Positions 11,898 through 31,267 of a DNA stretch of 64,000 bases are shown here, in pieces. The notes under the pieces are model-generated. The model did no database searches. It worked only from the letters and a program-made list of their open reading frames with translations, and was not told the DNA's origin. Position 1 is the first letter of the stretch. Every line of letters starts with the position of its first letter. The stretch is taken from positions 7,501,001 through 7,565,000 of the forward strand of contig NZ_CP061379.1 in assembly GCF_015624505.1 (NCBI RefSeq), given 5' to 3'. Made by a program: the position numbers and the translations under genes. This stretch comes from Bradyrhizobium commune. Its GTDB lineage: Bacteria; Pseudomonadota; Alphaproteobacteria; Rhizobiales; Xanthobacteraceae.

Positions 11898-12016
11898 GCC
11901 TGCTCCACCCTGTCCGCCACCTGCGACATGGTTAAGCTATGCCAGTTTTGAGGAGGTTTTGGAACGGGGATGGCGGAGAGTGACCGCGTTGGGGCAAGGC
12001 GCTCGCCACATGTTCG

Positions 12017-12048
12017 GTGTCGTCCTGGCTTTCGCCAGGACGACACCG
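12017..12048. terminator. Hairpin downstream of the carrier-protein gene
   Basis: GGTGTCGTCCTGG and CCAGGACGACACC form a perfect 13-bp stem with a short loop (CTTTCG). It begins 4 bases past the stop of the acyl carrier protein gene (minus strand) and so may terminate that transcript before mtnP. The same core (GTCGTCC..GGACGAC) recurs at 24952-24979 and in the arms of 40689-40820, so it is also a dispersed repeat. Confidence 0.6.
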
Positions 12049-12052
12049 AGGG

Positions 12053-12331
12053 CTAAGCCGCGGTCGCAGGCCGCAGCTGCGTCGCGACCATACGCTCCAG
12101 CGTCTCGACCGACTGGAAATTCTCCGGCGTGATCTCGGACTGCGGGATGGTGAAGTCGAATTCGGCTTCGACGCCCAGCATCAGGTTTACCATGTCCATC
12201 GAGGTCAGGCCGACATCGACGAGCTTGGCCTGCGGCGTCACATCAGCTAACAGCGAGTTCTGTTCAAGGATGCCCTTCACCAGCTTGATGATGCGACTGC
12301 GCAATTCGGTATCGAAGGCCTGCATCGGCAA
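12053..12331 (-). CDS. Acyl carrier protein (dedicated aminoacyl carrier candidate)
   Basis: Small carrier protein of 92 aa. The phosphopantetheine attachment site lies in DVGLTSMDMVNLML, with Ser44 as the modified residue; the DSL motif of housekeeping ACP is replaced by TSM. Surrounding residues are acidic (VEAEFDFTIPQSEIT). It is divergent from the dehydrogenase-ligase-GNAT genes. In B. japonicum, stand-alone carrier proteins encoded beside seryl-tRNA-synthetase-like ligases are charged with amino acids, so this is the likely partner of the ligase at 13939-14919 (inference from context and family). Confidence 0.9.
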   Translation of the reverse strand: MPMQAFDTELRSRIIKLVKGILEQNSLLADVTPQAKLVDVGLTSMDMVNLMLGVEAEFDFTIPQSEITPENFQSVETLERMVATQLRPATAA

Positions 12332-12681
12332 ATTCCCATCTGTCTATCGAGGTCGGACCGGACTGCCAGCTACGGTGGGCAGGGGGGCCCGATCCCGCAA
12401 TGGGCGCGACCCTTACTTCGCAATTCTTAGTAAACGATGACTCAGATTGTCTAAAATCGATGCCTCTTCCAAATGGCTAACGCCATACCGGATTTTTCGG
12501 CGACGCAAAAAACTGGGCCTTAACTGTTCGTTCGGAATTTGGCTTCGTTTACCCTCTATTTCATCGACGAATTTGAATTAAATCCGTAGCCTCACTCTAC
12601 AAGCAAAGATGGTCGGATGGCGTGAATGGCATCGCAAATGGTGCCTCTCGGTCTCGAACGGCGAAGCGGAGGCGGACGAGC
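12332..12681. other. Gene-free divergent regulatory region of the carrier-protein locus
   Basis: 350 bases between the divergent carrier protein and dehydrogenase genes, visibly richer in A+T than the flanking genes from about 12420 to 12600. It has to hold the promoters of both transcripts. A short inverted repeat ATGGC-TAAC-GCCAT lies at 12473-12486. A GGAGG ribosome-binding sequence at 12668-12672 serves the dehydrogenase start at 12682. No sigma-54 pattern or convincing -35/-10 pair stands out. Confidence 0.5.
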
Positions 12682-13899
12682 ATGAACGTGCGTGAAGCGA
12701 TCCTCACTGTCGACGAAACGCAAACGAGCCTTCTCGAGCAGGGCCCCTCCTTGATCGAGCGCGCGGCCCGCACCGCCACTGTGGCTGCGGCCGACGCTGA
12801 CGGCGTCGATCGCGACGCCCGCTTTCCCCACAAGGCTTTCGATGCCGCGCGTGAGCAAAAGCTGCTCGGCGTCATGATCCCGGTCGAGCTCGGCGGCTTC
12901 GGCGCCTCGATCTACGACGTCAGCGACATCTGCTACACGCTCGGCCGCGCCTGCGCTTCGACGGCGATGATCTACGCGATGCACCAGACCAAGGTTGCCT
13001 GCGTTATCAGGCACGGCCACGGCATCCCCTGGATGGAAACCATGATGCGCCGGGTCGCCCGCGACCAGTGGCTGCTCGCCTCCTCCACCACCGAGGGCCA
13101 GAACGGCGGCAACATCCGCGCCAGCGCGGCTGCCGTCGACCACGCCGGCGACACCGTCTCGCTGGTGCGCGACGCCACCGTGATTTCCTACGGCGCCGAG
13201 GCCGACGGCCTCGTCACCATCGCCCGCCGCGCCACCGAGGCCGCGGCATCCGACCAGGTGCTGCTGGCGCTCGCCAAGGACGACTATTCGCTGAAGCAGA
13301 CGCAAGGCTGGGAAACGCTCGGCATGCGCGGCACCTGCTCGACAGGTTTCGAGCTGAAGGTCGATTGCCCCACCGACCGCGTCTTCCCGGAAGCGTATGA
13401 CAAGATCCACGCGCAGACGATGACGCCGTTCGCGCATCTGTGCTGGTCATCGGCCTGGGCCGGCATTGCCGCTGCTTCTGTCGCGCGCGCGCAAGCCTTC
13501 ATCCGCAAGGCTGCGCGCTCCTCCGGCGGTCAGATGCCGCCGGCCGCCGCGCACTTCACCGCCGCAAAAATGTCGCTGGCAAAACTCCGCGCGCTGATCG
13601 CTGCCAATCTCGACGCCTTTGCCCGCGCCGAGCACGACGAGCGCGCGCTCGGCTCGCTCGACTTCCAGTCCTCGATAACGCTGCTGAAGGTGCAGGCCTC
13701 CGAGCTCGCGGTCGAGACCGTGATGCATGCGATGCGCACCACCGGCCTCTCCGGCTACCGCAACGACGGCGAGTTCACCATGGGCCGCCATCTGCGCGAC
13801 GTGCTGTCGTCGCCGATCATGATCAACAACGACCGCATTCTGGCCAACGCCGCCACCTCGACGTTGATGAGCGGCATCCCGACAAGCCTTCGCGACTAA
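12682..13899 (+). CDS. Acyl-CoA dehydrogenase-like flavoprotein of the carrier-protein locus
   Basis: FAD enzyme of the acyl-CoA dehydrogenase fold, 405 aa from the ATG at 12682 (MNVREAILTVDETQ), which has a GGAGG site; an in-frame upstream extension is ignored. Visible features are the N-terminal helical domain (VMIPVELGGFGASIYDVSDI), the flavin-binding strand region SSTTEGQNGGNIRAS, the middle beta domain (GWETLGMRGTCSTGFEL) and the C-terminal helices (TTGLSGYRNDGEFTMGRHLRDV). It starts a three-gene plus-strand cluster with the aminoacyl ligase. Its substrate may be an aminoacyl group on the carrier protein rather than a CoA ester, but that is inference. Confidence 0.85.
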   Translation: MNVREAILTVDETQTSLLEQGPSLIERAARTATVAAADADGVDRDARFPHKAFDAAREQKLLGVMIPVELGGFGASIYDVSDICYTLGRACASTAMIYAMHQTKVACVIRHGHGIPWMETMMRRVARDQWLLASSTTEGQNGGNIRASAAAVDHAGDTVSLVRDATVISYGAEADGLVTIARRATEAAASDQVLLALAKDDYSLKQTQGWETLGMRGTCSTGFELKVDCPTDRVFPEAYDKIHAQTMTPFAHLCWSSAWAGIAAASVARAQAFIRKAARSSGGQMPPAAAHFTAAKMSLAKLRALIAANLDAFARAEHDERALGSLDFQSSITLLKVQASELAVETVMHAMRTTGLSGYRNDGEFTMGRHLRDVLSSPIMINNDRILANAATSTLMSGIPTSLRD

Positions 13900-13938
13900 A
13901 TCAACAAGAACAATTTTGAGATAGCAGGACACCATCCC

Positions 13939-14919
13939 ATGAACATTGCCGTCCTCCCCGACTCGCCCGAGACCGCGCCGCAGATCGCAGATCCGCTCGA
14001 TCATCTCGCCGACAAGCTGTTCCACCGCATGGGCTCGGACGGCGTCTACGCCCGCACCGCGCTCTATGAAGGCATTGTCGAGCGTCTCGCCGCGCTGATC
14101 ACTCGTCACCGCGAGGCCGGGACCGAAGTGATGCGCTTCCCGCCGGTGATGAGCCGTGCCCAGCTGGAGAAGTCTGGCTACCTCAAGAGCTTTCCGAATT
14201 TGCTTGGCTGCGTCTGCGGCCTGCATGGAACCGAGCGCGAGATCAACGCCGCGGTGAGCCGCTTCGATGCCGGCGGCGACTGGACCTCATCGCTCTCGCC
14301 GGCCGACCTCGTGCTGTCGCCAGCCGCCTGCTATCCCGTCTATCCGATCGCGGCAAGCCGCGGCCAGCTGCCGAAGGGCGGCCTGCGCTTTGACGTCGCC
14401 GCCGACTGCTTCCGCCGCGAGCCGTCAAAGCATCTCGACCGGCTGCAATCGTTCCGGATGCGTGAATATGTCTGCATCGGCACGCCCGACGACGTCGCCG
14501 ATTTCCGTGAGCGCTGGATGGTGCGCGCGCAGGCGATCGCCACCGATCTCGGCCTGACCTTCCGCGTCGACTATGCCAGCGATCCCTTCTTCGGCCGCGT
14601 CGGCCAGATGAAGGCCGTGAGCCAGAAGCAGCAGCAGCTCAAGTTCGAACTGTTGATCCCGCTGCGCTCGGAAGAGCAGCCGACCGCTTGCATGAGCTTC
14701 AACTATCACCGCGAACATTTCGGCACGACCTGGAGCATCCAGGACGCCAACGGCGAGCCCGCCCATACCGGCTGTGTCGCCTTCGGCATGGACCGTCTGG
14801 CCGTCGCGATGTTCCACACCCACGGCACCGATCTTTCAGCCTGGCCCGCCAAGGTTCGGGACATTCTGGGCCTCCAGCCGCAAGTCGCGGCTGATGCCCA
14901 CGGTGAAGGCTGGCGCTAA
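13939..14919 (+). CDS. Amino acid:[carrier protein] ligase (seryl-tRNA synthetase-like)
   Basis: Class II aminoacyl-tRNA-synthetase-like enzyme, 326 aa, with no tRNA-binding arm. It should activate a small amino acid with ATP and attach it to the phosphopantetheine of a carrier protein. Class II motif 2 is seen in CFRREPSKHLDRLQSFRMRE and motif 3 in CVAFGMDRLAVAMF. Cys131 (PAACYPVYP), Glu176 (FRMREYVC) and Cys279 (HTGCVAFG) fall where I recall the zinc ligands of the crystallised B. japonicum enzyme Bll0957, and the length is identical. Established work on that family reports glycine or alanine as substrate. It follows the dehydrogenase by about 40 bases; the likely acceptor is the divergent carrier protein. 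Confidence 0.92.
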   Translation: MNIAVLPDSPETAPQIADPLDHLADKLFHRMGSDGVYARTALYEGIVERLAALITRHREAGTEVMRFPPVMSRAQLEKSGYLKSFPNLLGCVCGLHGTEREINAAVSRFDAGGDWTSSLSPADLVLSPAACYPVYPIAASRGQLPKGGLRFDVAADCFRREPSKHLDRLQSFRMREYVCIGTPDDVADFRERWMVRAQAIATDLGLTFRVDYASDPFFGRVGQMKAVSQKQQQLKFELLIPLRSEEQPTACMSFNYHREHFGTTWSIQDANGEPAHTGCVAFGMDRLAVAMFHTHGTDLSAWPAKVRDILGLQPQVAADAHGEGWR

Positions 14920-14955
14920 GGCAAGGGGCCGACCATTTCCACGGGCAAGACGAGC

Positions 14956-15831
14956 GTGATCCACACCAAGGTCCGATGCCGCGAGATCACCGAGTCCGAT
15001 GTCGATGGCATCGCGGACTTGCTGACGCGCGGCTTCGTCGGCCGCTCACGCAACTACTGGATCCAGGGCCTGCGCCGGCAGGCCTTCCGGCCGGTTCCGG
15101 ACGGCTATCCGCGCTTCGGCTATATGCTCGACAATGACGGCGAACCGGTCGGCGTGCTGCTCCTGATCTACACCACGCGCAAGGATGGCGAGGAGACCGC
15201 CATCCAGTGCAATCTGTCGAGCTGGTATGTAGAGCCGGCCTACCGCAATTACGCGCCGCTGCTGACCAAGATCGCCCAGCGGCACAAGCACGTGACCTAT
15301 CTCAACATCAGCCCGGCGGTGTGGACCTGGCCGATCATCGAGACGCAGGGCTTTCGCGCCTATTGCCGCGGCCTGTTCTTCTCGGTGCCGGCGTTGTCGC
15401 GCGCCCCGCGCTGGAGCAAGATCGAGGTCATCTCGCCACACGCCAAGCAGGTCGAGGGCCTCTCCGAAGCCGAGACCGAGCTTTTGACACGCCATGCGCG
15501 CTACAATTGCCTGAGCCTGGTCTGCCGCACGCCGAAGGGCACCTTCCCCTTCATCCTGCAACCGGTGCGTATCCGCCGCGGTTTCATCGCACCGCCGGCG
15601 ATGCAGCTGATCTACTGCCGCAGCGCCGCCGAATACGCCGCTTGCGCCGGCCGGATCGGCCGGCTCTTGCTGCGGCTCGGCAAGATTTCCGTCATCGTCG
15701 ATGCCAACGAACCGATCCCCGGCCTGGTCGGCATTTATACCGAGCGCCGCGGCCGCAAATATTTCAAGGGCCCGCACCGCCCGCGGCTGGGTGATCTCAC
15801 GGATACCGAGCTCGTGCTGTTCGGACCGTAG
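14956..15831 (+). CDS. GNAT-like acyltransferase of the carrier-protein locus
   Basis: Protein of 291 aa starting at GTG 14956 (MIHTKVRCREITESDVDGIADLL). The beginning resembles a GNAT N-acyltransferase fold: REITESDVDGIADLL as the first strand and helix, GVLLLIYTT as a central strand, then SSWYVEPAYRNYAPLL as the acyl-carrier binding region. No diagnostic Q/RxxGxG/A motif is clear, so the assignment is tentative. It is 36 bases after the ligase and in the same direction. A plausible job is transfer of the aminoacyl group from the carrier protein to an unknown acceptor, which would complete the pathway, but nothing in the sequence identifies that acceptor. Confidence 0.7.
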   Translation: MIHTKVRCREITESDVDGIADLLTRGFVGRSRNYWIQGLRRQAFRPVPDGYPRFGYMLDNDGEPVGVLLLIYTTRKDGEETAIQCNLSSWYVEPAYRNYAPLLTKIAQRHKHVTYLNISPAVWTWPIIETQGFRAYCRGLFFSVPALSRAPRWSKIEVISPHAKQVEGLSEAETELLTRHARYNCLSLVCRTPKGTFPFILQPVRIRRGFIAPPAMQLIYCRSAAEYAACAGRIGRLLLRLGKISVIVDANEPIPGLVGIYTERRGRKYFKGPHRPRLGDLTDTELVLFGP

Positions 15832-30755: not shown

Positions 30756-30986
30756 ATGACAAAACAGGCGCTCGAAATCCTGCTGGAACGCGTATCAGCC
30801 TGGCCCGAAGAAGCCCAGGAGGAACTGATGCGGTCCATGACTGACATCGAAAACAGGCATCTCGGCATCTATCGGCTCAGCGACGACGAGCGAAATGCGG
30901 TGCGCCGCGGCCTCAAAGACATGCGCGACGGCAGGCTCGCAAGCGACGAAGCGGTTGCCGCTGTCTTCGACCGCTACAGCGCATGA
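30756..30986 (+). CDS. Antitoxin of a ParDE/RelBE-type pair
   Basis: A 76-aa acidic protein: MTKQALEILLERVSAWPEE, then the Asp/Glu/Arg-rich DDERNAVRRGLKDMRDG stretch and a short VFDRYSA tail. It is like antitoxins found directly before ParE/RelE-family toxins. It overlaps the next gene by 4 bases (ATGA at 30983-30986), so synthesis of both is coupled and antitoxin comes first. No clear DNA-binding domain can be named from sequence. Confidence 0.75.
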   Translation: MTKQALEILLERVSAWPEEAQEELMRSMTDIENRHLGIYRLSDDERNAVRRGLKDMRDGRLASDEAVAAVFDRYSA

Positions 30987-31267
30987 GAGTACGCTGGTCC
31001 GAGAGCGCGCTTTCGGACATCGACAACATCTTCTCCTATATCCACGAACGCAATCGCGCGGCCGCGGCCGCCGTAGTCGAGCGCATCAAAGCTGTCGCCG
31101 ATCTCTTGCAGGATTTTCCTGAGGCCGGGCATCTCACAGATGAAGCCAGCGTTCGCATGTTCCCGACCGTTCGCTACCCTTATTTGATCTTTTATACGAT
31201 CAACTCTGCCGAAGCCGAGATCGTGATCCTCCATGTCCGTCATGGAGCTCAGGATCGTCAATCCTAG
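30983..31267 (+). CDS. ParE/RelE family toxin
   Basis: A 94-aa toxin of the RelE/ParE superfamily. The start MRVRWSESALSDIDNIFSYI is typical, followed by VVERIKAVADLLQDFPEAG, then FPTVRYPYLIFYTI and the closing strand EIVILHVRHGAQDRQS with the family's His-x2-Gly-Ala-Gln-Asp-Arg end. It may target gyrase or mRNA; sequence does not decide. Together with the preceding gene it forms a type II toxin-antitoxin module. Confidence 0.87.
   Translation: MRVRWSESALSDIDNIFSYIHERNRAAAAAVVERIKAVADLLQDFPEAGHLTDEASVRMFPTVRYPYLIFYTINSAEAEIVILHVRHGAQDRQS

Follow-up and report, generated by a model that had tools for sequence, protein, structure and literature searches.

A carrier-protein ligase locus of Bradyrhizobium commune, possibly the amino-acid arm of a wider gene set that is partly dispersed

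Introduction

What does a bacterium make from an amino acid that it has loaded onto a free-standing carrier protein? The question is raised by four genes at positions 12053-15831 of a 64,000-nucleotide stretch of Bradyrhizobium commune DNA (contig NZ_CP061379.1, 7,501,001 to 7,565,000; hereafter the window), taken from a genome of 7.62 Mb in a single contig. The genes code for a stand-alone aminoacyl carrier protein, a protein of acyl-CoA dehydrogenase (ACAD) fold, an amino acid:carrier-protein ligase and a protein resembling GNAT transferases. Synthetase-like ligases have reportedly been shown since 2010 to charge carrier proteins, for a purpose that is said to be unexplained, and a 2022 review still describes the biological role of carrier loading as unknown (PMC9437257). 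An initial annotation, made from the DNA alone, had read the four genes as a complete locus and a four-gene pathway of loading, alpha,beta-oxidation and acyl transfer. The comparisons described here lead us instead to give a probability of roughly 45% to the reading that the four genes supply the amino-acid branch of a larger pathway of free-standing carriers and enzymes.

The loading step

The ligase gene (13939..14919, + strand) encodes a class II SerRS-like protein of 326 aa. Its length, the presence of Cys131, Glu176 and Cys279, and the positions of all four genes are as the initial annotation had them; we take the three residues to be the zinc ligands of the enzyme. With NCBIfam PRK07080 the protein reaches 486.4 bits, where the cut-off is 357, and it aligns over its whole length with Bll0957 of B. 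japonicum in PDB 3mey/4h2s (E 4.2e-218). The source genome holds one ligase of this type at E<=0.001; relatives scoring below the cut-off, 27-33% identical where full-length matches were scored, fall outside the analysed set. The carrier gene (12053..12325, - strand) is divergent from the other three and likely starts at ATG 12325, giving 90 aa with Ser42 in GLTSMD, the residue numbered Ser44 in the 92-aa version of the initial annotation. Its product matches the 'Aminoacyl carrier protein 1' chain of 4h2s-4h2v (4h2s_C; E 2.6e-48), entries that also contain the ligase, and the gene lies next to the ligase gene set, as the cognate carrier of a PRK07080 ligase should.

Because both proteins are orthologous to a pair that was solved together, the proposal first made for the locus, that the ligase loads an amino acid on the carrier encoded beside it, is supported. 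This reaction is already known from Bll0957 and its carrier and is not new here. Bll0957, its relative in A. tumefaciens and the carriers of both are reportedly the subject of Mocibob et al. 2010 and 2013 on amino acid:[carrier protein] ligases, and the window ligase and carrier are orthologues of these proteins (PDB 3mey, 4h2s-4h2v). Glycine is presumably the preferred substrate of Bll0957, and by analogy the ligase here would load glycine or alanine. The ACAD-fold, ligase and GNAT-like genes look like one operon, since the gaps between them are each <40 bp.

Conservation and gene neighbourhoods

Within the genus the four genes travel together. Carrier, ACAD-fold protein, ligase and GNAT-like protein stand in the same arrangement in 80/80 loci, which are the best 80 of 157 confirmed and therefore close relatives by choice (78 titled Bradyrhizobium, one Bradyrhizobiaceae and one Frankia). 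All four genes are under purifying selection, with median dN/dS values of 0.132 for the carrier, 0.085 for the ACAD-fold protein, 0.073 for the ligase and 0.132 for the GNAT-like protein, compared with 0.049 for the neighbouring mtnP (77 loci). Among 146 Bradyrhizobium genomes the ligase is present in 96 and a GNAT match in 101. The latter comprise 95 of the 96 ligase-bearing genomes (the match being fragmentary in G863 and split in G765) and 6 of the 50 ligase-less ones, namely G790 at 73%, G744 with a partial match at 65% and four genomes at 25-29%; the sole ligase-bearing genome lacking a GNAT match, G753, has a locus of the DUF1839 type described below. Two records in the locus set are unusual. 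The one titled 'Frankia sp. RB7' (L002) carries a Bradyrhizobium-type locus whose ligase, 98% identical, is the nearest in sequence to that of the window, and perhaps represents a mislabelled or contaminated assembly. B. japonicum SZCCT0153 holds two four-gene copies on one contig (L027 and L029), with equal rounded identities to the window gene by gene.

Beyond the genus, linkage was scored with tblastn over as much as 20 kb around each ligase in 27 loci. These are all the loci of the class and phylum samples with a ligase above the cut-off; five plasmid loci were added. Both the ACAD-fold gene (all but L103 and L108) and the carrier (all but L107 and L159) are linked to the ligase in 25/27. 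Two architectures emerge. In the first, clade I (18/27), the ligase neighbourhood carries DUF1839, in 17 of the 18 together with a GH2 glycosidase, and no GNAT. Neither DUF1839 nor GH2 is found in the other 9/27, which are L103 and L108, also devoid of the ACAD-fold gene, and seven loci that have it (L106, L107, L155-L159). These seven, with the window-type and sister Bradyrhizobium loci, make up clade II, which is one group in both trees, with support of 100/100 in the ACAD tree (47 rows) and 98/71 in the ligase tree (50 rows; clade I is unresolved in the latter). A GNAT gene occurs in 2/27 of the loci, 0/18 in clade I and 2/7 in clade II. The initial annotation had staked its pathway on conserved linkage to the ligase in other genomes. 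For the dehydrogenase-like gene this linkage extends well past the genus; for the GNAT-like gene it holds throughout the 80 Bradyrhizobium loci but largely breaks down outside.

Plasmid records of Azospirillum, Rhizobium, Phyllobacterium and Mycetohabitans show the gene order carrier, ACAD-fold protein, ligase, DUF1839, GH2 glycosidase, the last annotated as beta-mannosidase in Mycetohabitans, with an alpha/beta hydrolase in 3/4 records. A tblastn search with the carrier gave no match in the plasmids and is blind to diverged carriers, because carrier genes adjoin the ligase there and yet went unmatched. In the window genome DUF1839 gave 0 matches, as against 3/3 positive-control genomes matched.

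The linkage of flavoprotein and ligase past Bradyrhizobium, in two architectures, is new here; clade I was partly noted in print in 2010. A note added in proof (Iyer et al. 2010, PMC2922099) placed a carrier, a redox enzyme, a conserved open reading frame (ORF) and a glycosidase beside the same ligase family, and suggested that the amino acyl group is mono-oxygenated and ligated to a sugar of the cell surface. The view of the initial annotation that the end product and the later reactions are not described is largely true, but has to make room for this proposal. Carrier, redox enzyme and ligase are common to that glycosidase-type neighbourhood and the window, whereas the window genome is without DUF1839, and its locus includes a GNAT gene and has no GH2 or alpha/beta hydrolase gene beside the four genes. 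No paper on the clade II cluster was found in the open-access collection searched, and absence there is not absence from print.

A larger cluster and its dispersed parts

The clade II loci outside the window type show what the four genes may belong to; the larger cluster and the remote operon described below are further new findings. In eight sister Bradyrhizobium loci (L169-L173, L180-L182), whose ligases are 78-84% identical to that of the window, the four genes are part of a cluster of ~12 that includes two AMP-forming ligases, a second acyl carrier protein (ACP2), a short-chain dehydrogenase (SDR), MetY/MetA, an aminotransferase (AT4) and often a thiamine diphosphate (ThDP) enzyme. The genes for the SDR, an AMP-forming ligase (AMPL), ACP2 and a fatty acyl-CoA synthetase (ACS) lie with the carrier on one strand, and those for the ACAD-fold protein, ligase, MetY, MetX, GNAT and AT4 on the other. 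The two sets are contiguous in 8/8 of the sister loci fetched and also in L106 and L158, which belong to other families and hold MetY, MetX, ThDP, ACS, ACP2, AMPL, SDR and GNAT; smaller parts are seen in L156 and L157 (AMPL and SDR) and in L107 and L159 (MetY and MetX). Among the eight sister loci the ThDP enzyme is found in five, a cupin in four (at the other end in L169) and ACP2 in six, and some parts are decayed: the ACS is a remnant in L181, the GNAT a fragment in L182 and AT4 broken in L171. For L172 most assignments are above family cut-offs, with the ACS falling in the long-chain acyl-CoA synthetases of PRK08279 (741 bits, cut-off 625), MetX in the homoserine O-succinyltransferases MetA of PRK05368, AT4 in PRK13356, the ThDP enzyme in PRK08199 and MetY in TIGR01326; the family matches of AMPL are all far under cut-off, the best being MenE.

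The window genome itself carries an intact ACS-ACP2-AMPL-SDR operon at C1:6,968,137-6,972,432, ~0.54 Mb from the ligase, with identities to L172 of 65, 77, 72 and 79%, respectively, and the same arrangement recurs in G361. Since the window has one part of the larger cluster of the eight sister loci and two distant genomes, and this remote operon another, both the 'complete locus' and the 'four-gene pathway' of the initial annotation are doubtful; on a simple reading, the window type arose from the larger cluster by reduction or dispersal. A physical link of GNAT to the ACS/AMPL module is seen in G774 and G848 (L177, L178), where AMPL and ACS flank a GNAT paralogue encoded on the other strand, in a stretch without a ligase. 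Homologues of MetY, MetX and AT4 (71, 45 and 80%) occur within ~11 kb near 0.6 Mb of the window genome; these MetY-MetX and EST-AT4 genes (~0.595-0.606 Mb) could be further dispersed parts or, equally, ordinary methionine and amino-acid genes. By eye, the region (L201, 0.588-0.608 Mb) also has an ACC-deaminase-like gene and an Lrp-type regulator between MetY-MetX and AT4, and a hydrolase gene adjoining AT4 resembles one next to the carrier in L106. A rhizobitoxine-like pathway, prompted by the MetY, MetA and aminotransferase genes of the extended cluster, found no support in an open-access literature search.

The two parts also co-occur. AMPL, scored at a threshold of E<=1e-100, is present in 96 of the 146 genomes. 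Ligase and AMPL are both present in 93, the ligase alone in 3 (G753, G765, G772), AMPL alone in 3 (G744, G790, G832) and neither in 47 (Fisher p 7e-31, with kinship uncontrolled). In one of these genomes, G790, the carrier and GNAT genes lie close together with no ligase or dehydrogenase between them and AMPL elsewhere (L176), apparently a natural partial deletion.

The flavoprotein and the GNAT-like protein

The ACAD-fold protein (12682..13899, + strand) most likely starts at ATG 12682 rather than 12622, giving 405 aa with invariant His101, His252, Trp255, Trp259 and Asn383. It contains the Pfam domains PF02771 and PF00441 of acyl-CoA dehydrogenases, a family from which its flavin content is predicted. 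The Glu of the YEGT motif is the catalytic residue of acyl-CoA dehydrogenases; the corresponding column, aligned to IYEGT of 3pfd, holds Ile or Val in 34/34 aligned sequences. As a beta carbon is lacking in glycine, and the usual catalytic Glu in the protein, the alpha,beta-oxidation step of the initial annotation is not supported. The prolyl-carrier dehydrogenases PltE, PigA and AnaB, which we take to be ACAD-fold enzymes acting on a carrier-bound amino acid, offer a likeness, but their substrate differs, and the window protein, with no Glu in the IYEGT column, is far under the NCBIfam cut-offs for PigA (36.5 of 500) and RedW (25.4 of 650). Among the closest solved sequences are the nitrososynthases KijD3, DnmZ and ORF36, ACAD-fold N-oxygenases whose substrates are sugar nucleotides rather than a carrier protein; a W-x-x-LGMR stretch is common to KijD3 and the window protein. 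This similarity suggests that the protein may be a flavin N-oxygenase.

The fourth gene (14956..15831, + strand) encodes a 291-aa putative acyltransferase or aminoacyltransferase, in which no Pfam domain is found even at E<=10, nor among the listed matches of its relatives. Its AlphaFold model (mean pLDDT 92.5) shows a tandem GNAT fold, with full-length structural matches that include N-myristoyltransferases and double-GNAT glucosamine N-acetyltransferases. The pyrophosphate-binding loop of GNAT enzymes reads R/Q-x-x-G-x-G/A; in the window it is replaced by R97-N-Y-A-P-L, and the majority consensus of 73 sequences is FRxYAxxL.

A predicted PhaR link

In a study of B. diazoefficiens, bll0957 and bll0958 are listed as up in a phaR mutant under microoxia at both transcript and protein level, with a fold change of 3.0 each and log2 values of 2.5 and 1.7 in the next column (PMC10888616). 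Both genes have predicted PhaR boxes there and are not listed among the promoters tested by gel shift; the box given for bll0958 is GGCATCGCGAAT at -52, and the consensus, NGCN3GC[GA]N3, is loose (PMC10888616). The window carries GGCATCGCAAAT at 12628, as part of an operator-like inverted repeat, GGCATC-N6-GGTGCC with one mismatch (12628..12645, + strand), 54 nt before ATG 12682. GGCATCGC occurs at -52 to -54 in 51/80 loci, against a background of 0.025 per 150 bp; the support for the box lies in this constant position, which can also come from shared ancestry. When the inverted repeat was sought with <=1 mismatch, 60/77 matches in the 80 loci fell in two 100-base bins at that position. The window as a whole is not enriched in PhaR-like 12-mers with <=2 mismatches (16 found, 18.1 expected).

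A proposed pathway and its alternatives

If the four genes do form the amino-acid branch of a larger pathway, its course might be as follows. The ligase would form Gly-AMP and load glycine on the phosphopantetheine of the carrier, a step established for the orthologous pair, with glycine presumed as substrate. The flavoprotein may then oxidise the glycine on the carrier, either at its N or at the bond between C-alpha and N, by N-oxygenation or imine formation rather than by alpha,beta-desaturation. The tandem GNAT would attach to the (modified) glycyl-carrier, at its amine, an acyl group activated by a second module, composed of the fatty acyl-CoA synthetase, the second ACP, the second AMP-forming ligase and the FabG-like SDR, which in this genome would be the operon ~0.54 Mb away. 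We infer the reactions of the flavoprotein and GNAT protein, and would expect as product a small glycine derivative, oxidised and N-acylated. PhaR possibly represses the pathway, which would tie it to carbon storage and microoxia. That it constitutes a type II nonribosomal peptide synthetase-like pathway, contiguous in some alphaproteobacteria and split in the lineage of the window, with ACAD-fold oxidation of carrier-bound glycine, its joining by a tandem GNAT to a carrier- or CoA-activated acyl group and a PhaR-controlled metabolite as its novelties, is a tentative extension of this scheme.

Several findings weigh against a joint pathway. Acyl-CoA use by the GNAT is uncertain because its loop is non-canonical. 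In the ~20 kb surrounding each of the 18 clade I loci there is no GNAT, and outside the genus just 2/7 of the clade II loci have one. In those two, L106 and L158, it clusters with the plasmid GNATs of Methylocystis, Shinella and Rhizobium and not with those of Bradyrhizobium, at weak to middling support, so it may have been recruited on more than one occasion. Relatedness seriously confounds the co-occurrence of ligase and AMPL, which probably reflects few independent events, because 14/16 ligase-less genomes checked carry a more distant mtnP (84-87% identical to that of the window, as against 92-97% in the window-type rows printed). Two discordant genomes show no signs of decay, G772 having ligase and GNAT without AMPL, and G790 retaining AMPL, carrier and GNAT without ligase or dehydrogenase. 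Finally, the operator-like repeat is found neither upstream of the remote operon nor between the carrier and ACAD-fold genes in the six sister loci checked.

The alternative that survives best is surface-sugar aminoacylation, in which the oxidised carrier-bound amino acid is passed to an amino sugar of a polysaccharide, by DUF1839 in clade I and by the tandem GNAT replacing it in clade II. It accords with the ligation proposed for the glycosidase-type neighbourhood, with Atu2574 as the amide ligase (Iyer et al. 2010, PMC2922099). In our analysis this ORF would correspond to DUF1839, which another report describes as papain-like, with its catalytic triad kept and a suggested role on cell-wall glycans (PMC10318531). 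The glucosamine N-acetyltransferases matched by the GNAT model fit the idea, as do the GNAT homologues found among glycosyltransferase, GumC and flippase genes in the polysaccharide clusters of Methylocystis and Shinella plasmids (L166, L167) and, by eye, polysaccharide-export-like genes near three clade II loci (L155-L157). In the window, however, no polysaccharide genes adjoin the four genes by eye, the genome has no detectable DUF1839, and what the clade II cluster brings in their place is a pair of AMP-forming ligases and a second ACP. We consider it the likeliest competitor, if on balance an improbable one.

The second alternative, that the four genes act alone and the remote operon tracks the same Bradyrhizobium subgroup through common descent alone, gains from the stability of the block in 80/80 loci, from the distant mtnP of most ligase-less genomes and from G772 and G790, each of which holds one side without the other. 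Set against it are the joining of both sets in 8/8 sister loci and in L106 and L158, and decay in some discordant genomes, seen in G744 (a stop in AMPL, a partial GNAT and no ligase), G765 (a partial ligase, a split GNAT and no AMPL) and G832 (a partial AMPL); we judge it unlikely. Classical alpha,beta-dehydrogenation of carrier-bound alanine or an acyl group, for example to a dehydroalanyl-carrier, is very improbable, for although the fold, the Pfam domains, the weak PigA/RedW similarity and most of the solved relatives listed are those of ACADs, the catalytic Glu column, the family scores and the presumed preference of the orthologous ligase for glycine all speak against it.

Other features of the locus

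On its 3' side the carrier gene is followed directly by a 16-bp perfect inverted repeat with a 4-nt loop (12014..12049), which lies between it and mtnP and appears terminator-like, judged by position only. The adjoining mtnP and mtnA suggested LuxI-like S-adenosylmethionine chemistry with methylthioadenosine salvage, an idea thought unlikely because the hairpin separates carrier from mtnP and because in 18/18 genomes checked (16 ligase-less genomes, and G753 and G765, which have their ligase loci at other sites) mtnP-mtnA stands without any of the four genes across the ~9 kb retrieved next to it on that side. Searches for RNA families and tRNAs in the window found none. At 30756-31267, two overlapping small ORFs resemble, by eye, an antitoxin-toxin pair of ParD/ParE type.

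Implications

The larger contiguous cluster of the relatives suggests a route to the product of the carrier-loading system. Seen as members of a larger gene set that is partly dispersed, the ligases acquire candidate partner enzymes, and a culture condition for their study, microoxia in a phaR mutant, suggests itself. If the split is true, mining of contiguous clusters only would miss the pathway in window-type Bradyrhizobium.

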